Below are positions 1 to 10,082 of a stretch of 27,598 bases of DNA, one piece after another. Under the pieces are notes generated by a model that saw only the letters and a list, made by a program, of their open reading frames with translations, was not told where the DNA came from and did not search any database. This stretch comes from a virus. How positions within the stretch are numbered: the stretch's first letter is position 1; every line of letters starts with the position of its first letter. The position numbers and the translations under genes were made by a program. The stretch lies in the IMG/VR virus record IMGVR_UViG_3300033979_000485, positions 1 through 27,598 of that record; one strand, given 5' to 3'.

Positions 1-333
1 CACTTCGCCCTTGTCGTCCAGCTCGGGCTGCACCGGGGGCTGGGCCAGCCGGCGCTGGGCAGCTTCCAGGGCCCAGGTCTCGCGCAGCAGCGCCATGTCG
101 GCACGCGCCTGGACGCCCGCGTCCCGCGAAGCCAGCGTTGCGGCGGCGAAGGCCGCGACCTGCGCCCGGTCATCGTCGTCCATCGCGTAGATGCCCAGCA
201 TGTTGCCGGTGACCTTGCGGTTGAGCACCTGCTCGTCGACCACCGAGAACTGTGACCTGAGCATGGCCTCGGTGCGGTTGGCGATGTCGGCCTCGGACCA
301 GTCGTCGTTGGCCATCAGATCCACGAAGCTCAT
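1..333 (-). CDS. Hypothetical phage protein after the tail fibre (partial, 3' end outside window)
   Basis: This leftward frame opens with ATG at 333-331 and stays open to the window edge, giving 111 residues with no stop, so the C-terminus is missing. It begins MSFVDLMANDDWSEADIANR and is acidic and helical in character, rich in Ala, Asp and Glu, with no signal peptide or membrane segment. Its start overlaps the stop of the tail fibre gene in an ATGA arrangement (TGA at 332-330), so translation is probably coupled to the fibre. Short proteins of this kind often follow tail fibre genes in betaproteobacterial prophages. A fibre-associated or chaperone role is possible, but I cannot assign a function. 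Confidence 0.8.
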   Translation of the reverse strand, partial: MSFVDLMANDDWSEADIANRTEAMLRSQFSVVDEQVLNRKVTGNMLGIYAMDDDDRAQVAAFAAATLASRDAGVQARADMALLRETWALEAAQRRLAQPPVQPELDDKGEV

Positions 334-3300
334 TGCACGCTCCTCGATGCCTGGATCTGCACCCAGGTGGTGTTGCCCGGCGCGGTGCCGAAGCGGATGG
401 TTTCCCGGAACCCATCGAAACGGCGGGTCCAGTCCTTGGTCGCGCCTTCCTGCTTGGCGGTGCCGGCAGACGACACTTCCTCGGCCTCGTAGCCCACCGG
501 CAGGTGGAAGTCGGTGAAGTTGATCTGCACGCCCGAGGCGCTGGCCGTGGCCGCTGCCGACAGGTAGATCGTGGTGCCGCTGATGGCGACGATGGTCGCG
601 CCCGCAGGGATGCCAGAGCCCGTGACCGCCGCGCCCACCACGCTGCCCGGGTAGGACAGGTTGGCCACGCTGGTGATGGCGGTGTTGCCGTTGACCGTGG
701 TGGCCGTGAAGCCGCCCACGTAGTCGAAGGCCACCAGATCCTTGTTGAGCCGCGCAGCCGCCTCGGCACGGCGCACCAGTTCCTCGCGCAGGCCGTAGGC
801 CGGGATGCTGACGTCCACGCCCGGGTTGGTGGTGCTGCGGGCCAGGAGCTGGATGCCCGAGGCGGCAGCCGCCCGGGTGTAGCTGCCTGCCGGCACCGGG
901 GTGACGCTGGTGCGCACCAGCCCGGCCCACTCGCTCTCGTTGGCCGCGCTCACGGCGATCCACCGGTCGGTGGCGTCGTCGTAGGTCAGGTCGACGATGT
1001 TGCCGCTGTCAGGCAGGCAGCACTTGGCCCCGGCGCGGAAGAGCTGCTTCTCCTGCTCGTACATCCAGACCGACTGCTCGGCCGTGGGCACGGTGGCGCT
1101 GAGCTTGAGCAGCGCGATGCTGCCCGGGAAGGGCGCGTCCAGGGCTTGGCTGTTGCCGATGGTCAGCGTGGCACTGCTGTTGTTCAGCGTGAGCAGCGGG
1201 TTGCCCCGGGTGGCTGCGACCTCGACACCGTTGACCCGGATGGACAGGGTGCCATCGGTGGTGTAGCACGCCTCAGCCTTCAGCCACGTGGCGGTGTTGT
1301 AGGCCGCGCTGGTTGTGACGGTGCGGGTGGTGGTGCCGTCGAAAGCAGTGGCGGTGAGCCGACAGGCAGCGTCTGTGCCCAACCTGATATACGGACCCGA
1401 GGAATGGGCACGTGAAGCGGCGTCCCCCGGAATTGCGAGCGGAGTACCCGTAGTCTCAACATACGGAGATACTACATCTCCTTCATTGATTTGGAGTTCT
1501 GCCAAGTATATGGTCAGCGCAGAGGCGAATGTCCCGCTAGCCATGGCAAACAAAGACTGCCAACCAGAAGAAACACCGGTGTATGAGTTAGTTGTGGTTT
1601 GCCAGACTCCGGCCGCTGATGCTGACAGCGGGGAAAAAGAATCGCCACTGCCGAGATTACCTGCCATACCTAGACTGACTGATTCTCCAGCGGCAATATC
1701 CCTGGACAGCGCATACGCAAAACGACGGGTATATCGCTTCGTAGCCGTCTCTGTAATTTTCGAGTTGTCGTTACTTCCGAAATTCAGCAGGTAGGAATTC
1801 GAAAAACTAGCCCCGGCAGCAATGTCGATCTTTACGACATTAGATTTACCGCTGTAGGTGGCAGAAGAAATTGTTACACCGGATATACCGTAGGTAAACG
1901 GAGTTAGGCTGGTGGACCTCGGGAACAAATTCCCACGCCACAAGTAATTGACCCACGCCGAGCACGACCACTCCCCGGTGCCGAAGTCGAGATCGGCGCT
2001 GTAGGGCTCCCGGGCGTAGTTGCTGACCGAGAAGCCCGAGTAGGCCACCAGCTCGGCGGCTGCGGCGACTTCGGAGCGGGTCAGGGTGCCGGTGACGAGT
2101 GCTCCAGCGAGTTGGTATGAACGGTTTGTCACACCGACCAACGTCATCTTCAGGTTGTCGACAACAAAATTGGCACCAGCGACTGTGCTAAGGATTTGAA
2201 GTTCGAAATAACCATCGCTCCTGATTAGTGCGAAACCGCGGATTGTCGTAGGTCCGACTACGGTCGAATTGCTAAAAGCTCCAGCATTGCCTGCAAACTC
2301 AAGCCGAATGCGCCCAGAGCCAGAGATAACATCTGCCTCGACTGCGTACACCCCAGGTGCAACAGTTAACGCCCCCGTACCCACACCTGTGAAAGCATTA
2401 CCTGCCGTCACAACTAACTGCCCAGATACAACGCTGGCTGATCCTCCAATCGGTACGGTAAAAAAGCTATTCGTGCCGCTTGAAAAATCACCGTTAGGGA
2501 TTATTGACGACTGCGCGGCTACAGCTCCTGTTGCGTTATCCGACAGGAAGGTGCGCCGGATGTCGCCGGGTTGGTGGCCGGTGTTGAAGAGGCTGGTGAC
2601 GATTGCACCTGAGCTACGACCGACGCTCGCTTCGTGGATGCGCAACCAGCCAACGCGATTGCTGCTTGCCAGGACAAAGTTGTTTCCGAAGCCAGCGGCG
2701 GCGGACGGCGTGCCACGCACGCAATCCGGGAAAGTGCTTTGCGATATTGCGCTTAGCGCAGAATTGACTTCCGGGTTTGCGACGTAATACATAGACGAAC
2801 CAACCCCGGCATTGCATAAATACCCACGATTGTTCGCCCTGTTTATTGAGGAGCCGTAGCCTGCAAAACCACTAAAAGAAGTCTTGCTGCTCTCGTTGAA
2901 AAATAGTTGAGGAGCACCCTCTGCCATGCCGAAAATCAGAGGGTCGACGATGTTGTCATCAGGTATGCGCTTGGGTGTTTTGGGGGCAGTAACGAACAAA
3001 CCCTCCATGTTTATCCCACTGAGAGCAACAGTGGAAATCAGAACAGGTGCGTAGAGTGACGTAAGCCGGCTGGAGATGTTTCCGTTGTAGTACAGCGATC
3101 CGTGATGTAGATAGGCGGCATCTCTGGGAAAATTCCAGATCCAGAAATGCCCGGAGTTGTTCATAGCTCTGTGAAAGCCGAAAACACCGTTGGCCATAGA
3201 TCTGGCCACCCCGTTGATAGCGTTGGTACCGCCAGGATTGCCAAATTGTGCGTAGTTGAACCGGATCCACATTGGGAATCCGGGGGTCGTCAGGTCATAA

Positions 3301-4124
3301 AACGTCGTGCCGTTTGCAGCTCCAGATTCAGACACAATGCCGACAATTTTCGGAAAGTCGCGCTTGTTGCCCCGGAAGACCTGGGTGATGCCGCTGCTGG
3401 CATTGAGTCTGTAGAACAGGCCATCGGTGGTGCGCTGGAAGTAATCGCCCGTCGTGGCCCCTGACACCGCACGCGCCGCAGATTCACTGGCCTGGGCGCC
3501 GAGCCACTTGCCGTTGATGTCCTCGTTCCACCAGCTCGTGTGCTGGCACTTCTCCGTCCACGCGCCACCGTCGCTGTCCTTCGATGTGTCGTAGACGAAC
3601 ATCGCCGTGACCGCGTTGGGACTGCGGTGCAGCGCTGCGGCGTTGACGCCCGACAGATCCTGCTGCACCACGCTGGACGCGCTGGCGGCGTGGCCTGCGG
3701 CTACCGAGGCGGCGTTCTGCGCCGCGATGACGGCGGCTTGTTGGGCGGCGGTGTTGCCGTAGATGGCCAGGGCGCTGGCGGCGCTGCCTGCGGCCTCGCC
3801 GGCCTTGGTGTTGGCCGTGGTGGCGCTGGCGGCGGCGGCGCTGGCGCTGGCGCTGGCTGCCGCCGCCTGCGTGGTGGCGGTGCTTGCCGAGGCGGCGGCT
3901 GAGGACTGCGAAGCTGCCGCGGCCACGCGGCTGGCATCCGCGGCCACGGCGTCGGCGTCGGCCTCGACCGCGTTGTTGTAGACGTTGGTGGCGGCCGCGT
4001 TCATCTCGCTGCGCATGGTGGGCAGCGCGCCCAGGAAGGCGTCGGCCAGCGTGGCGAAGGTGCTGGGGTTGTTGCGGCTCGGCGGGGTGGGCAGGGCCTG
4101 GATCGTGGGCGGCGTGGTGGGCAT
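330..4124 (-). CDS. Mosaic tail fibre / receptor-binding protein
   Basis: This 1264-residue protein is most likely the side or tip fibre that recognises the host surface. Residues about 40-160 are an Ala-rich, Ser/Thr-dotted stalk with coiled-coil potential. Residues about 255-535 are a Gly/Asn-rich beta domain ending in WLRIHEA and GDIRRTFLSDN. Residues about 535-665 look like a jelly-roll carbohydrate-binding module (NGDFSSG start, VDNLKM end). A LamG/concanavalin-like domain begins at about 695 (DLDFGTGEWSCSAWV), is broken at about 726-900 by a second CBM-like segment (NLFPRS to VSPYVETTGTP), and resumes at PYIRLG. Near the C-terminus is a small beta motif (GSGIPAGATIVAISG). The central third is clearly lower in GC than its flanks. 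A GGAG Shine-Dalgarno precedes the ATG at 4124. Fibre identity is well supported; the exact ligand is unknown. Confidence 0.88.
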   Translation of the reverse strand: MPTTPPTIQALPTPPSRNNPSTFATLADAFLGALPTMRSEMNAAATNVYNNAVEADADAVAADASRVAAAASQSSAAASASTATTQAAAASASASAAAASATTANTKAGEAAGSAASALAIYGNTAAQQAAVIAAQNAASVAAGHAASASSVVQQDLSGVNAAALHRSPNAVTAMFVYDTSKDSDGGAWTEKCQHTSWWNEDINGKWLGAQASESAARAVSGATTGDYFQRTTDGLFYRLNASSGITQVFRGNKRDFPKIVGIVSESGAANGTTFYDLTTPGFPMWIRFNYAQFGNPGGTNAINGVARSMANGVFGFHRAMNNSGHFWIWNFPRDAAYLHHGSLYYNGNISSRLTSLYAPVLISTVALSGINMEGLFVTAPKTPKRIPDDNIVDPLIFGMAEGAPQLFFNESSKTSFSGFAGYGSSINRANNRGYLCNAGVGSSMYYVANPEVNSALSAISQSTFPDCVRGTPSAAAGFGNNFVLASSNRVGWLRIHEASVGRSSGAIVTSLFNTGHQPGDIRRTFLSDNATGAVAAQSSIIPNGDFSSGTNSFFTVPIGGSASVVSGQLVVTAGNAFTGVGTGALTVAPGVYAVEADVISGSGRIRLEFAGNAGAFSNSTVVGPTTIRGFALIRSDGYFELQILSTVAGANFVVDNLKMTLVGVTNRSYQLAGALVTGTLTRSEVAAAAELVAYSGFSVSNYAREPYSADLDFGTGEWSCSAWVNYLWRGNLFPRSTSLTPFTYGISGVTISSATYSGKSNVVKIDIAAGASFSNSYLLNFGSNDNSKITETATKRYTRRFAYALSRDIAAGESVSLGMAGNLGSGDSFSPLSASAAGVWQTTTNSYTGVSSGWQSLFAMASGTFASALTIYLAELQINEGDVVSPYVETTGTPLAIPGDAASRAHSSGPYIRLGTDAACRLTATAFDGTTTRTVTTSAAYNTATWLKAEACYTTDGTLSIRVNGVEVAATRGNPLLTLNNSSATLTIGNSQALDAPFPGSIALLKLSATVPTAEQSVWMYEQEKQLFRAGAKCCLPDSGNIVDLTYDDATDRWIAVSAANESEWAGLVRTSVTPVPAGSYTRAAAASGIQLLARSTTNPGVDVSIPAYGLREELVRRAEAAARLNKDLVAFDYVGGFTATTVNGNTAITSVANLSYPGSVVGAAVTGSGIPAGATIVAISGTTIYLSAAATASASGVQINFTDFHLPVGYEAEEVSSAGTAKQEGATKDWTRRFDGFRETIRFGTAPGNTTWVQIQASRSVQ
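1370..1950 (-). other. Low-GC CBM-like module nested inside the fibre LamG domain
   Basis: Base composition changes sharply near 1950 and near 1370-1430, with AT-richer sequence between. The encoded segment, about residues 726-905, opens NLFPRS and closes with AELQINEGDVVSPYVETTGT, a pattern typical of phage carbohydrate-binding jelly rolls. The high-GC sequence on either side reads as the two halves of a single LamG domain (WSCSAWV before, PYIRLG after). I infer insertion of a foreign module into a surface loop. Boundaries are approximate. Confidence 0.6.
2100..2545 (-). other. Low-GC CBM-like module between fibre domains
   Basis: A second AT-richer block encodes about residues 527-675 of the fibre. 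It begins IIPNGDF and ends FVVDNLKMTLVG, which fits a CBM4/9-type jelly roll in sequence pattern. It lies between the conserved GDIRRTFLSDN segment and the start of the LamG-like domain, at a linker and not inside a domain. Composition and edges were judged by eye. Confidence 0.5.
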
Positions 4125-4143: not shown

Positions 4144-5043
4144 TCAGGTCAGGCCCTCGACTTCGAGGGACACGAGCGCGGTGGTGGGGTAGGCGACGTC
4201 GATGCTGAAGTCGCGGTACCAGCCGTAGACGACGAGCGGGGCGTAGATCGGGTCGTCGGCGCCGATCCAGATGCATGGCGTGGCGCGGATGTCGCTGAGC
4301 ACGCGCTGCACCCCGTTCATGCGCACGGCGTCCAGGAACATGCGCGCCGTCATGCGCTTGGCAAAGGTGCGCGGCACGAAGGTGGTGATGCCGAATTCGT
4401 CGGTCTGCTTGACCGAGTAATCGGTGATGCCGGCGGTGGCGCCGTACTCGGCTTCGCCCAGGTCGTAGCTCTGGCCGAAGACCAGGTTGCCGATGGCCAC
4501 CGCGCCGCCGCCGGTAAGCGTGACGACGAGCTGGCCGTTGAGGTACAGCGGCAGATCGGTCAGCACCACCTCGCCGAGCTGGACGAATGGCTCGAAGAAG
4601 TAGCCGAACCAGTCGAGGATGATGGTGCCGTCCAGCGCCTTGGTGACGGTGTAGACCGTGGTGCCACCGGGCGAATCCTTCAGCGTGACCGTCAGGCTGC
4701 TGCCCACCAGGCCGACGGCGGCCACGCTGTTGACGTAGCCCACGTTCACCGTGACGCTGAGGCTGCTGGTGGCCTGGCTGGCGGTGCTGACCTGCTCGTC
4801 GAACATGGCCCAGCGGTTGGTGGGGCCGACGGCCAGCCAGTTGGTGCTGTCCAGCTCGGGCGCGGTGGCGGTGGTGCCGGCCACCAGGCGCTCGTAGATG
4901 CGGTGCGTCTGCGTGCGGATGGCGCGGTCGCCCTGGGCGTAGGCGGTGGCGGCGTTCCAGGCGGTTTCGCCGGTGGCGGGCTCGGCAATGCTGGCGGCGG
5001 CCAGCATGGCGTCGGTCATGCTCTTGGGCTTGATGACTTTCAT
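4144..5043 (-). CDS. Tail protein with possible carbohydrate-binding segment
   Basis: This is a 299-residue protein encoded directly after the tape measure, where tail-tip or distal tail components are expected. Residues about 25-65 (TAWNAATAYAQGDRAI, then YERLVAG and NWLAVGPTNRWAMFD) resemble the aromatic-rich CBM5/12 chitin-binding pattern. The rest is beta-rich and ends with YPTTALVSLEVEGLT. No signal peptide or membrane helix is seen. Its ATG overlaps the tape measure stop (ATGA at 5043-5040), so it is probably co-translated, and the fibre gene starts 19 nt after its stop. Proteins of this form recur in betaproteobacterial siphovirus tails. It has no obvious lambda M or L counterpart, and its precise position in the tail tip is inferred. 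Confidence 0.75.
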   Translation of the reverse strand: MKVIKPKSMTDAMLAAASIAEPATGETAWNAATAYAQGDRAIRTQTHRIYERLVAGTTATAPELDSTNWLAVGPTNRWAMFDEQVSTASQATSSLSVTVNVGYVNSVAAVGLVGSSLTVTLKDSPGGTTVYTVTKALDGTIILDWFGYFFEPFVQLGEVVLTDLPLYLNGQLVVTLTGGGAVAIGNLVFGQSYDLGEAEYGATAGITDYSVKQTDEFGITTFVPRTFAKRMTARMFLDAVRMNGVQRVLSDIRATPCIWIGADDPIYAPLVVYGWYRDFSIDVAYPTTALVSLEVEGLT

Positions 5044-8000
5044 GGCGCGGCCACCGTCTGCAGGCTGTTGCCGTCGGGCGTGACGCGCTCGAGGATGCGC
5101 GACGTCTTGGCGGTATGGCTGGCCGTGGCGGCCATGGCGGCGTGCAGGTTGGCCATCTCGGCGCGCAGGGCGCGCACCTCAGCGGCCAGCAGCTCTTCGC
5201 GCCGCTGCCCGTTGCCCAGCATGGCGGCGGTATCGGCGGCAGACCAGTAGCGGGCGGGGCCCGTGGCCTCGAGCTCGGGGCCGCGCTCGCCGACGATGCG
5301 CAGGCCGCCGGAGTGCAGGCCGCCCATTGCGAAGGCGGGGACACCACCGAGCGAGCGGATCAGGTCGCGCAGTGCGTTGACCTGCGGCTCGTAGGCGCGC
5401 AGCGCGGCCTGGGCCTCGGCTTCGGCCTGCTGCGCGGCGGCAAAGGCGGGGTTGGCGCGCTCCTCGTAAATGCCGCCCTTGGCGAAGCCAAGCCAGTCAT
5501 ACCGCGTGCCTACGCGCACGCTGGTGGTGGCCGGCGTGCCGGCCAGCGTGGCCTGGGCGCTCTGCACGTTGCCTTGCAAGCTGCCCAGGTAGGAGCTGGC
5601 GCTCTTCAGGTCAGCCTGCGCGCGCTGCAGGTCTTGCTGGCGCTTCACCTCGGCCTGCTGCGCGGCGGTCTGCATGTTGATCGCGCTGATGACCTGCGAC
5701 AGCCGGTCGGCCACCAGCGTGTTGCCGCTGGTGATGCGGTCCACCAGCAGCAGGCTGGTGGGGTCGCTTTCGCTCAGCTTGGCCAGCACGCGAGCGAGCG
5801 TTGAATCGCTGCTGGCCAGGAAGCTGATGGCCCGGCTCTGCTCGTCGATCACGCCCCCGGTAGCATCGGCGACCGAGCCGGTGGTGGCGGTGGTGCGGTT
5901 TGCGGCGGTAACGATGTCGCCGGTACCCAGGATGACCGAGCGCACGCGCTCTGCGGTCAGCTCTTGCAGGCTGACTTGGGCGTCACTGTTGCGGTCTGCG
6001 CGCGCGATCAGCGCCCGGATCTGGTCGTCGCTGGCCTTGCCCGCCAGCCCGCGCTGCAGCTCTTCGAAGGTGAGCAGTCCGTCGACGTTGGCGTCCAGAC
6101 CATCAAAGCCGGCGATCAGTTCGCCGGTCAGCGTCAGGATGCGCTGGGCGACATCGACGGTGCTGCGGTTGACGAGTTCCAGGCGTTGGCGCACCTGGTC
6201 GGCCGCAAGCTCTTGCACGCTGACCTGCCTGTCGCCATTGGTATCCACGCGCGCGATCAGCGCCCGGATCTGGTCGTCGCTGGCCTTGCCCGCCAGCCCG
6301 CGCTGCAGCTCTTCGAAGGTGAGCAGGCCGTCGACGTTGGCGTCGAGCGCCTGCATCGCGCTGGCGATGGCGCCGCTGGAGCCGAGCGAAGCATTGATGG
6401 CTTGCAGCAGCGTGGTGTGCTGCTGCAGCGTTTCTACGGTGAGGTTTCCGTTCTGCAGGTCTTCCTGCAGCACCTGCAGGGCGGCGGTGTTGATGTCCAG
6501 CAGCGCGGCCTGGGCGCTGCGCTGGCCGCCCAGGGTGTCGCTGAGAGCGGCCACGCCCTGCAGCTCGGCCGCGATGCGGGCGGCGCCGATGTTGGCTTCG
6601 GCCCGGGTGCGGGCGGTGCCGCGCAGGCTTTCGGCGTAGGTGCTGGCCAGGGCGCCCAGGTTGCCCATGGCGGTGGCATCGCCGGCCTGGGCGGCGGCCA
6701 GGCCGGTGCGGTAAGCGCTGGCGGCGCTGGCGCCCGGGCTGCCCGTGCCCAGCAGCGCGACGATGGTCTGGCGCAGGCTGCTGCCGGCCTGGGCGTAGGC
6801 ATCGGCAGCCTGGCGCGCGGCGTTGGCGGCGGACTGGCTGGCGCTGATCTGCCTGGCCAGGGCGTCGGCGGCGGCGCTGGTGGCGGCGGCGGTGGCGGCG
6901 GCCAGCGCGGCCTGCTCGTCGCGCAGCGCGACGATGCGGTCAAAGAGCGCGCGGTTGCTCTCGTGAATGGCTTCGCGCTCTCGGCGACGCAGCTCTGCGG
7001 TGTCGCCCTGCAGCTGCAGCAGCTGCGTCTCGAGCTGGGCGCGCTCTGACATGACCTGCTGGTAGAGCTGGCGCAGGCTGTCGGCGGTGGTGCCGGCGCC
7101 GCCGGCCAGGCGGGCCATTTCGTCGGCGACGCTGCCGAGTTCTTTGGCGAGCTTCTGCTGAATCTCCTCCTCGGTCAGACCCATGAAGCTGATCTTGATC
7201 TGCCGGTTGAAGCCGTTGACGGCATCGGCGGCTAGGCCCATGTCGCGGGCCATCTGCATGGTGCTGTCGCGCAGCGTGGTCAGGCTGGTGTCGAGGAAGG
7301 CTTCAAGCTCGGGCTGCACCCCTTGGCGCGTGGTCTTGTCGCTGCGGAACAGGCCGCCCTTGTAGGAGTTGTACTGGCTGCCATCGAAGCCGCTGCCGGT
7401 GAGGAAGCCTTCGATGCCGGTGTCCTTGAGCTTGCGGCCGAACAGGGGCTGCCACAGCGCGGCCAGCGCGCCAGCGGCGGCCAGCCAGGGCAGCGCGGTG
7501 GCAAACGCTGCCCCGGCGCCCATGGCGCCGCCAGCGCCCGCGGTGGTGGGCCCGGCCAGGCCGGCGGCCAGCGATGCGCCCTGCATGCCGCTGCCGAACA
7601 GGCCCAGGCTGGTGCTGCCGATGGCGTTGCCGAAGCCGCCGATCAGCCCGCCCAGGCTGCTGGCGGCCGAGCCGCTGACGGCGCCGACCAGACTGCTGAT
7701 GCTGTTGACCCCGCTGAGTATGGACAAGCCCCCGGCGCCGCCGCCCGTGCTGGCGGCAGCCGTGCCGGCCAAGCCCAGGCTGCCCACGATGACGCGGGCC
7801 ACGGGGTCGACGATGGCCTTGATGATGGGCTGCAGCACCAGGGTGCTGAAGTAGCGCTTCAGTGCGTCGCCTGCGCTCTTGCCGCCGGACATCAGCGCGT
7901 CGGCCAGGGATTGGCCGACCTGGTCGACGGTGCGTTCCCACTGCGCGGCCGCGTCCTTGGCCGCCTGGTCGTTGGCCTGGCGCACGCGCTGGTCGCCCAG

Positions 8001-10082
8001 GGCGCCGAGCAGTTTTTCGCGCGCCTGGATCTCGCGCTCGATGGCGTCGTAGCCCTCGGTGCCCGCGCGGTACATGGCCTGCTGCTCGCGCAGGCGGGCG
8101 ATGGTGACCAGCTCGATGGCTTCGGCCAGGCTGATGGCCTGGGCGGCGGCCAGGGCGCTGGCCTTGGCGTCGAGCTCGAGGTCTGCGGTGCGGGCCTGGA
8201 TGGACTCGAGGTTGCGGCGGGCGGCTTCGGTCTGGTCGTCGAGGTACTTCTGGACGGCGGCGGCGTCCTGGATCTGGGCCTGGGTGATCTGGTCTTGCAG
8301 GGTCAGCAGGTAGTCGCGGTAGGCTTCGCGCTGGCGCAGGTACTCGCGGGTCGCTTCTTCTTCGGCCTCGTACTCGCGCACCAGGGCGGCCAGGGCGATG
8401 TCAGCCTGCAGCTGCAGCTCGCGCTGGTGGGCGGCTTCGGCTGCCAGCTCGGCGGCGTCGTAGCGGGCGATGGCGGCCAGGTCTTGGGCGGCGCGCACTT
8501 CGCGCTCGGCCTTGATGGCGGCGTCGGCGGCGCGCTCGGCATCGTATTCGCGCACCTGCTGGGCCAGGGCGCGGTCGGCCTGCAGCTCCAGCTCGCGCTG
8601 CAGGGCCTCGGCGCTGGTTTGCTCAGCGGCCAGCGTGGCGTCGTCGTAGCGGGCCTGCTGGCGCAGGGCGTCTTGTGCGATGCGCTCCAGCTCGGCCTGG
8701 TGCGCGGCTTCGGCATCGGCCACGGCGCGGTCGTAGCGCAGCAGGCGGTTGAGGCTGTCCTTCTCGTCGGCTTCGAGCTGCAGCTGCGCGGCGCGGCGGG
8801 CGGCTTCGTCAGCGGCGGCCTGGGCAGCGTCTTCGCGCCCCAGGCGCGCCAGGTCTTGGCGGGCGCGGATGTCGCGCTCGGCGTTGGCGGCGGCGGCGGC
8901 ACCGGCCGCGCCGGGGCCGCCGCCGATTTCGGGCGCGCTGGGCCGCGTGTCAGGTGCGGTGCCGCCCTGCGCCTGCGCCTGGGCTCGGCGCCTGGCGTTG
9001 AAAGATTCGCGCAGGCGGCGGCTGAGCGCGGTTCCGTCGTAGTTCCACAGGTTGTCGAGCTTTTCGTTGAACTCCTGGACGACGTCGTTGCGATCTTGCA
9101 AAGCGCGCTGGATGGCGGCGCGATTTTCGGGGTTGAAGATGCCGCCCCTGTTCTCGATGCGCAGCAGGCCGAAGACCTCGGCGAAGGTGCTGACATCGGT
9201 GAAGACGGCGCGGAAGGCGCTTACGACGACGCCGACGGTCTTGGCCACGCCGACCAGCGCCTCGGCCACGGTGGCGACGGCGATGGCCGCATCCTCGGCC
9301 CAGCTGGCCAGCGTGTCGCGCTGGCGCAGGTCATTGGTCTGGGTGATGGTGTCGTTGAGCGCCTTGGCGAAGTCGGAAAGCACCGGCAGCATCTGGCTGG
9401 CCACTGTGCGCGACAGTCCGCCAAGGCGCATTTGCAGCAGATCGACCTGCTCATTGAAGCGTCGCGCGGCTTCGCTCGCTTCGTTGTCCACCGTCAACCC
9501 CATGGCTCTGGCTTGACGATCGAACTCAGCCATGCCGGCGGCGCCGCGATTCAGCAGCGGCACGAGCTTGACGCCCTCTTCGCCGAACAAGCCGACGGCC
9601 AGCGTGGTCTTGGCCACCCCGTCGCGGTAGCCGGCAAAGCGATCCATGACTTCGCGCAGCACGCTCATGGTGTCGCGCAACGATCCATCGGCGTTGCGCG
9701 TCGAGATGCCCATCGCGTTGAGCGCCTCACTTCCCTTTGCGACTGCCACGGAGAGCTTGGACAGCAGAGGCGCCATCTGATCGGCTTGAAGGCCGCTGCG
9801 CCGGAAAGCCAGTTCAAGGCCGCCAAGGTTTTCAACTGCGATACCGAGCTGCTGCGAGAGGCGACCTGCTTGCTCAGTCGCATCAATGGCTGACTTGACA
9901 AACGCTGCGATCGTGCCCACCGACAGCGCGGCGGCCAGCTGCGGCCCCAGCGACTTGAAAGCATCGCCCACCTTCAGCGTCTTCGCGTCCAGCTCGCCCA
10001 GGCTGCGCGTGACGCCCGCCAGGCCGCCCGTTACCTGGGCGGCGCCCTGCAGGTTGAGCCGAATGCCGATCTGTTCTGCCAT
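5040..10082 (-). CDS. Tail tape measure protein with EF-hand pairs
   Basis: The 1680-residue product fits the lambda gpH role: it sets tail length and forms the tail lumen scaffold. Residues about 1-330 are the conserved N-terminal tape-measure region (phage minor tail type). About 340-730 is a long Ala/Glu/Gln/Arg coiled coil with internal repeats. About 760-880 is a Gly/Ala/Leu-rich hydrophobic stretch. The C-terminus has the typical tape-measure motif FAMGGLHSGGLRIVGERGPE near residue 1615. Residues 1247-1374 carry four EF-hand-like loops: DANVDGLLTFEE at 1247 and 1330, DTNGDRQVSVQE at 1280 and DRNSDAQVSLQE at 1363. At about 0.15 nm per residue the tail would be roughly 250 nm, assuming the whole protein is extended. 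It follows the G-T chaperone by 18 nt and overlaps the next gene. Confidence 0.93.
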   Translation of the reverse strand: MAEQIGIRLNLQGAAQVTGGLAGVTRSLGELDAKTLKVGDAFKSLGPQLAAALSVGTIAAFVKSAIDATEQAGRLSQQLGIAVENLGGLELAFRRSGLQADQMAPLLSKLSVAVAKGSEALNAMGISTRNADGSLRDTMSVLREVMDRFAGYRDGVAKTTLAVGLFGEEGVKLVPLLNRGAAGMAEFDRQARAMGLTVDNEASEAARRFNEQVDLLQMRLGGLSRTVASQMLPVLSDFAKALNDTITQTNDLRQRDTLASWAEDAAIAVATVAEALVGVAKTVGVVVSAFRAVFTDVSTFAEVFGLLRIENRGGIFNPENRAAIQRALQDRNDVVQEFNEKLDNLWNYDGTALSRRLRESFNARRRAQAQAQGGTAPDTRPSAPEIGGGPGAAGAAAAANAERDIRARQDLARLGREDAAQAAADEAARRAAQLQLEADEKDSLNRLLRYDRAVADAEAAHQAELERIAQDALRQQARYDDATLAAEQTSAEALQRELELQADRALAQQVREYDAERAADAAIKAEREVRAAQDLAAIARYDAAELAAEAAHQRELQLQADIALAALVREYEAEEEATREYLRQREAYRDYLLTLQDQITQAQIQDAAAVQKYLDDQTEAARRNLESIQARTADLELDAKASALAAAQAISLAEAIELVTIARLREQQAMYRAGTEGYDAIEREIQAREKLLGALGDQRVRQANDQAAKDAAAQWERTVDQVGQSLADALMSGGKSAGDALKRYFSTLVLQPIIKAIVDPVARVIVGSLGLAGTAAASTGGGAGGLSILSGVNSISSLVGAVSGSAASSLGGLIGGFGNAIGSTSLGLFGSGMQGASLAAGLAGPTTAGAGGAMGAGAAFATALPWLAAAGALAALWQPLFGRKLKDTGIEGFLTGSGFDGSQYNSYKGGLFRSDKTTRQGVQPELEAFLDTSLTTLRDSTMQMARDMGLAADAVNGFNRQIKISFMGLTEEEIQQKLAKELGSVADEMARLAGGAGTTADSLRQLYQQVMSERAQLETQLLQLQGDTAELRRREREAIHESNRALFDRIVALRDEQAALAAATAAATSAAADALARQISASQSAANAARQAADAYAQAGSSLRQTIVALLGTGSPGASAASAYRTGLAAAQAGDATAMGNLGALASTYAESLRGTARTRAEANIGAARIAAELQGVAALSDTLGGQRSAQAALLDINTAALQVLQEDLQNGNLTVETLQQHTTLLQAINASLGSSGAIASAMQALDANVDGLLTFEELQRGLAGKASDDQIRALIARVDTNGDRQVSVQELAADQVRQRLELVNRSTVDVAQRILTLTGELIAGFDGLDANVDGLLTFEELQRGLAGKASDDQIRALIARADRNSDAQVSLQELTAERVRSVILGTGDIVTAANRTTATTGSVADATGGVIDEQSRAISFLASSDSTLARVLAKLSESDPTSLLLVDRITSGNTLVADRLSQVISAINMQTAAQQAEVKRQQDLQRAQADLKSASSYLGSLQGNVQSAQATLAGTPATTSVRVGTRYDWLGFAKGGIYEERANPAFAAAQQAEAEAQAALRAYEPQVNALRDLIRSLGGVPAFAMGGLHSGGLRIVGERGPELEATGPARYWSAADTAAMLGNGQRREELLAAEVRALRAEMANLHAAMAATASHTAKTSRILERVTPDGNSLQTVAAP
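5999..6098 (-). repeat. Direct repeat copy 1 (EF-hand pair, tape measure gene)
   Basis: This 100-bp stretch recurs at 6248-6347, offset 249 bp (83 codons). I count only two differences, at 6078/6327 and 6096/6345. It encodes the EF-hand loop DANVDGLLTFEE and the following helices. The near identity of the DNA, against diverged flanks, indicates a recent internal duplication or gene conversion. Confidence 0.9.
6248..6347 (-). repeat. Direct repeat copy 2 (EF-hand pair, tape measure gene)
   Basis: Partner of the repeat at 5999-6098, in the same orientation and reading frame. Together with the diverged second loops (DTNGDRQVSVQE and DRNSDAQVSLQE) it forms two tandem EF-hand pairs in the protein. 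Confidence 0.9.

Follow-up and report, generated by a model that had tools for sequence, protein, structure and literature searches.

The locus described here raises the question of whether an AT-rich segment within a phage tail fibre gene is a separate module set into another domain, and what its composition says about where it came from. The window, by which we mean the whole stretch of DNA analysed, comprises the 27,598 bases of IMG/VR record IMGVR_UViG_3300033979_000485 and encodes phage structural proteins on its minus strand, in the order large terminase, capsid, tail tube, tape measure, PHROG-6278 protein and fibre; all features given below lie on this strand. The fibre gene (330..4124) was called from its open reading frame and translation together with weak PHROG tail hits, and encodes 1264 amino acids, with codon i starting at 4124-3(i-1). 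Its product is laid out as an Ala-rich N-terminus, a region that reads as a probable beta-propeller, a LamG domain and a C-terminal part. The complete 1264-residue protein matched no Pfam family at E<=1, as expected of a fibre whose LamG domain is split, and neither it nor the scaffold of a relative with an empty site (L012) had a match among 50,697 phage records. Upstream, the tape measure protein (5040-10082) contains EF-hand pairs, calcium-binding motifs that Pfam EF-hand_7 matches at E 2.2e-16 over residues 1239-1293.

A preliminary description, made from the letters of the DNA, had placed a jelly-roll-like module of 175 or so AT-rich codons at 1370-1950, between the high-GC halves of the LamG domain, and had taken the drop in GC as a mark of horizontal exchange. 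We examined each part of this description against relatives of the fibre, base composition, profile searches and structure models.

Limits of the insert and its parent domain

Homologues without the insert set its left junction directly after SAWVN (residue 726) and its right junction just before SSGPYIRLG (residue 908). With the GC contrast, these junctions delimit an insert, at the site we call S4, of 181 codons at 1404..1946 (fibre residues 727-907), with a recognisable core, NLF...VETTGT, at 1443-1931. Over the empty loop of 14-16 residues the net gain is 165-167 codons, near the number first given; the original limits overlapped the insert but overran it by approximately 11 codons into the second half of the LamG domain. 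The AT-rich stretch is real, since the S4 segment has a GC of 0.506 and all 22,932 stretches of equal length (543 nt) taken from outside the fibre gene lie higher (minimum 0.599). The flanking halves are GC-rich as described, with GC3 of 0.82 over 60 codons to either side versus 0.49 in the insert.

These halves also proved to be a single LamG domain. The first part (1947..2054; residues 691-726, ELVAYSG...SAWVN) and the second (1023..1403; residues 908-1034, SSGPYIRLG...LFRAGAK), both taken from alignment A1, run on from one another in the empty relatives. Three of the four empty fibres were searched, and each matched most of the Laminin_G_3 profile (PF13385) unbroken, at 64.3 bits for L012 (E 1.8e-17), 59.1 for L031 (E 7.4e-16) and 52.5 for L035 (E 7.7e-14), against a gathering cut-off of 27.6. 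The window fibre belongs with them because its second half is 55-79% identical to that of 17 other filled fibres and 54-75% identical to that of the four empty ones. Consistent with this assignment, a partial model of the window LamG region had laminin-G domains as its best Foldseek matches (Gas6, E 8.7e-4). Given that the AlphaFold model of LamG plus insert was weak (mean pLDDT 47), we infer the position of the S4 loop at the LamG surface from its tolerance of inserts.

Sockets and module types across the fibre family

A search with the LamG flanks recovered 10 viral loci. A profile built on the conserved residues that follow the loop found 23, together with a single genome, that of Polaromonas sp. 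P2-4; among 399 genomes, profile A2 matched only the Polaromonas one. With duplicates removed the family comprises 23 fibres, the window included, of which 22 could be scored at S4. Left out of the counts were L016, whose contig starts inside LamG, and L021 and L027, duplicates of L020 and L026. The loci are mostly metagenomic, with a host named only for the Polaromonas provirus, and the fibres are few and related, so that the counts below are not counts of independent events.

An alignment of nine sequences revealed a conserved scaffold broken at fixed places, its beads including YSADLDFGTGEW... and DAPFPGS...MYEQEKQ. We refer to the breaks as sockets and count one as filled when it holds 60 residues or more. 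At S4, four of the 22 fibres have 14-16 residues and the other 18, the window among them, have 131-190, which bears out the proposal of a separate module in a LamG loop whose parent domain is still readable. S1 (3450..3470; residues 219-225) and S2 (3387..3404; residues 241-246) are empty in the window, with seven and six residues, and are filled in 10 and 6 of 16 fibres, respectively. S3 (2127..2537; residues 530-666, IIPNGDF...VVDNLK) holds a type A insert in the window and is filled in 17 of 20 fibres, being empty in L019, L030 and L031; its limits in L033 were set by hand. The fibre of the Polaromonas P2-4 provirus carries a module at S3 and has an empty S4. S5 (1167..1184; residues 981-986), which also lies within LamG, is empty here at six residues and filled in 5/22. 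In L026 and L033, S1 reaches about 290-320 residues, which we read as two putative modules in tandem.

Module types were called from motifs by eye and from profiles rather than from structure, type A by the landmarks xELVTNGDFS...FDNISVREV and type B by NLL..SE..W...GAQLExGSTATxY. Sockets S2 and S5 hold type B only (11/11), and S1, S3 and S4 hold mostly type A, with type B at S4 in the window, L026 and L028; the S4 module of L034 received an automatic type B label and was counted as type A from its ending. No family could be assigned firmly to type A: a single module (L013 S3) gave a match below cut-off, to DUF642 (E 3.6e-4), and matches in the PDB were to xylanase modules (E 0.05-0.11), which we take to be of CBM4 type. 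A type B profile of 14 rows, one of them the window insert, matched the RcGTA head spike fibre Rcc01080 at E 1.6e-33, as well as Pseudomonas phage baseplate proteins (E217, Pa193). The S4 module of L026, an unambiguous type B, matched NF048003 (GTA_spike_fiber) at E 8.3e-29, as did the S5 module of L022 at E 2.1e-19. Among the 50,697 phage records, 380 contain relatives of this L026 module, and of 93 candidate stretches found in viral contigs 82 proved to be relatives (80 were kept); these numbers mark type B as a widespread portable module.

The window S4 insert matched NF048003 in NCBIfam at E 9.9e-6 (26.2 bits, below the curated cut-off of 36), over insert residues 4-169 (166 of 181) and profile positions 6-177 of 182, and the profile matched none of five controls (one reversed, four shuffled). 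The insert landmarks NLF, GW and LTIYLAELQINEGDVVSPYVETTGT align with those of type B, and PHROG 2189 (tail) was matched at E 0.0011. Two other profile tests did not confirm the assignment. An HMM built from 48 IMG/VR type B modules gave the insert 3.7 bits, within the range of shuffles (best listed 12.5), and the same HMM also missed the S4 module of L028 (4.0 bits); hhalign of the insert against 11 type B modules returned a probability of 0.3%. An insert-only AlphaFold model, weak (mean pLDDT 57.7) and made from an alignment that itself consists of type B modules, had 9b45 (E 0.011, prob 0.89) and 8env (E 0.24) as its top PDB matches, both of which type B profile A4 also matches. Alignments A3 and A9 misplaced module fragments into LamG columns and so were kept out of folding. 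The jelly-roll-like character first ascribed to the insert is supported but unproven; we consider it likely that the insert is a very divergent type B module, that is, a jelly roll of the GTA spike-fibre type.

On the broader question our confidence is slightly higher still, and we regard it as quite probable that the S4 segment forms an entire binding module set into a single surface loop of the LamG domain of a multi-socket phage tail fibre. The fibre family would then consist of a conserved scaffold with at least five sockets, two of them within one LamG domain, and each socket would be occupied by one jelly-roll-like module of type A or type B, or else be closed by a loop of only 4-16 residues, with some S1 sockets probably holding two in tandem.

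Base composition and exchange of modules

If an AT-rich module had recently been imported horizontally from a foreign donor, several features of the insert would be accounted for. Its GC3 contrast of -0.34 is the largest in the family, tied with the window S3 insert and L013 S5, and outside the fibre gene the GC of the window is nowhere this low. No direct relative was recovered from viral contigs (a peptide scan with residues 728-920 gave eight stretches, none of them a relative), from phages (tblastn, E<=1) or from the Polaromonas P2-4 family (299 genomes, searched without a positive control); phmmer with the insert found nothing in the PDB at E<=10. However, GC3 is below that of the flanks in 52 of 56 family inserts (Wilcoxon p 4e-10, which is only a guide because related fibres are not independent), and insert GC3 follows flank GC3 (rho 0.70), so that low GC marks this class of module generally. 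The second GC-poor insert of the window fibre, at S3, has a GC3 of 0.45, and residues 265-460 (2745-3332), a variable stretch that reads like a beta-propeller and in which no insert was found, have a GC3 of 0.56, so AT-richness is not confined to inserts. Low GC is therefore no proof of a recent foreign origin of the S4 insert; this part of the preliminary description is not supported, and we consider such an import improbable.

Within the window fibre, GC3 follows conservation, with rho of 0.62 across all bins and 0.33 on the 45 scaffold bins. Because the poorly conserved fibre N-terminus is GC3-rich, relaxed selection alone does not explain the AT-richness of the modules, which is only partly explained.

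The case for exchange comes instead from the modules themselves. In the close pair L022 and L023, the scaffold beads are 87% identical before S4 and 92% after it, and the S5 module is identical (100%) in protein and DNA, while the other four modules are only 34% (S1), 31% (S2), 26% (S3) and 43% (S4) identical. Modules in this pair have been exchanged independently of the scaffold; the breakpoints are not sharp, identity staying low for approximately 30 residues past S4. Exchange of modules is thus supported, though not by the GC drop first offered for it. A comparison of L018 with L023 gave 75% identity at S4 and 36, 31, 33 and 26% at S1, S2, S3 and S5, respectively; identities of 95-100% at the 'tail' of L034 were disregarded as products of a truncated contig. 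The window S4 module is 5-27% identical to the 17 other S4 modules, and by these values appears unrelated or only remotely related to them.

Such low identities might also arise without any exchange, if an old S4 insert had diverged in place in each lineage and types A and B were extremes of one family. In keeping with this, a left linker, xP...[FYL]Pxx[GS], is present in 14 of the 15 type A modules at S4 and in none of the three type B and four empty S4 sites, and type A modules at S4 and S3 cluster somewhat by socket (9 changes versus 12.6 in shuffles, and 8 versus 13.6) on a module tree in which only 2 of 39 inner branches are starred as well supported; most of that tree is unresolved, and we draw little from it. 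On the same tree, S1 modules are scattered, needing 10 changes for 10 rows, which runs against divergence in place, as does the L022/L023 pair with its identical S5, its conserved scaffold and its four dissimilar modules. On the scaffold tree, from which inserts were left out, S4 state needs five changes; empty sites need four, and type B at S4 (the window, and L026 with L028) needs two, the starred branches forcing at least two. Weighing these points, we judge divergence in place to have only a small chance of being correct, about that of recent import. Exchange of whole modules remains our preferred reading, and the start of the insert hints at how it came about: the window reads WVNY, as does L028, and the empty L035 reads WVNY too, which suggests that the window module may have entered an empty loop rather than replaced a type A module.

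Hypervariable stretches in a receptor-binding protein are also what a diversity-generating retroelement acting on the fibre might produce. A reverse transcriptase (PF00078) was matched in 0 of 13 records, some of which may be fragments, and in 3 of 14 control genomes, and the fibres differ by whole modules and not by substitutions at fixed codons. We rejected this explanation, which we consider extremely improbable.

Probable function, known systems and neighbouring genes

We propose that recombination between phages would swap a module while the scaffold beads on either side hold the fibre in register, which could be kept because both ends of a module would leave the parent loop near one another. 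Each module would probably bind a surface glycan, and its replacement would change or add a specificity while the LamG sandwich stays folded. Receptor contacts with interchangeable specificity are the most likely reading of the modules, one we favour with moderate confidence. The modules could otherwise be spacers or trimer or oligomer contacts that make the fibre stiffer or longer and bind no receptor, as the type B profile matches to baseplate proteins of E217 and Pa193 might suggest; E217 gp45 is structural, being described in the available part of its source as a subunit of the baseplate triplex with the task of anchoring the fibre (PMC10329688), so not every type B domain need bind sugar. 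Fast, independent turnover of modules is, on the other hand, expected of receptor contacts and not required of spacers, and the RcGTA homologue serves in attachment: head fibres containing the type B domain enable binding to capsule polysaccharide, according to the accessible portion of the RcGTA report (PMC7296036). That portion gives residues 2-10 of 325 as the only ones of the head fibre resolved in the structure (PMC7296036). We regard the role as spacers or oligomer contacts as unlikely and retain that of receptor contacts. The resemblance to RcGTA lies in the head spike fibre domain (Rcc01080, a chain of PDB 6tb9), which socket type B modules match strongly and the window insert at the E value given above; unlike the RcGTA domain, which belongs to a head-fibre protein, the window insert is nested in a LamG loop and falls below the NF048003 cut-off.

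A LamG sandwich that takes inserts in its loops has a counterpart in neurexin, whose splice-insert structures were matched by the LamG model in Foldseek, among others. Neurexin inserts are short, alternatively spliced segments, whereas here whole domains are exchanged in DNA. Shuffling of fibre domains has also been described, in a study that we take to be that of Smug et al. 2023. In the part of that text available (PMC10684548), domains of receptor-binding proteins are reported to have been exchanged recently among tail fibres and spikes of related phages; the domains swapped there are C-terminal and exchanged end to end, unlike modules nested in scaffold loops. Lactococcal 936 phages likewise nest a CBM in a phage structural protein, the evolved Dit, the MTP or the neck-passage protein, for extra saccharide binding (PMC6669499, from its accessible sections). 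There the carrier proteins are different, the hosts are Gram-positive and the CBM is of the BppA type, whereas here one fibre has several sockets, each with alternative modules. Domain-in-domain insertion in siphophage tail proteins is known from lambda gpJ and T5 pb3, for which the portion of the source at hand lists an HDII-insertion, a beta-sandwich in HDIV, an inserted Ig-like domain and the T5 plug domain (PMC10721106); these are parts of a conserved structural hub, in contrast to interchangeable modules. Nested CBMs, inserted tail-protein domains and fibre-domain shuffling are thus already known, but several interchangeable sockets on a LamG scaffold appear to be new, as no account of such a fibre was found in the full-text literature searched, from which subscription journals were mostly absent.

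Phage fibres usually vary at the tip, whereas the variable parts here are nested at fixed places in loops of conserved domains, so that specificities could be added, dropped or traded singly. Empty sites pinpoint the place at which a LamG sandwich can accommodate an additional complete domain, and in L022 and L023 nature has in effect run an experiment in module exchange. If the modules bind different glycans, socket occupancy would be a readable code for the host surface sugars of the uncultured phages of this group, whose only named host is a Polaromonas, and the socket loops would be of use for studying the evolution of nested domains.

Behind the fibre gene lies a small open reading frame (1..333) that is truncated where the contig ends; its ATG and the stop codon of the fibre gene overlap as ATGA, as read from the sequence. 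By tblastn it was matched in 22 of 24 relative loci, L030 and L034 being the exceptions. The best match immediately follows the fibre in 21 of these 22, and that of L018 is found upstream, after the end of a second fibre-like gene. The L012 copy matched no Pfam or PHROG family, and the product is a candidate fibre-assembly factor or chaperone. On the upstream side, a tape measure gene and a gene for a phrog_6278 protein precede the fibre in the window, and both were also found in L035 by tblastn, while L014 has an SU10 adaptor and L026 a lambda-J-like protein at this place. Since the virion genes that precede it differ, the fibre cassette seems to move between virion types. We give roughly even odds to the fullest form of this reading, in which the fibre is a combinatorial scaffold of at least five fixed loop sockets, two in one LamG domain, that take two unrelated jelly-roll families interchangeably, singly or in tandem, and serves as a multi-site glycan reader whose specificities are traded singly, with the scaffold and the small reading frame behind it travelling between virion types.

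Near the fibre C-terminus, residues ~1137-1203 (516-716; VGGFTATTVNGNTAITSV...ASGVQINF) are high in GC and absent from L002 and L012 and, judged by eye, from L031 as well; they may form a further optional unit of the fibre.
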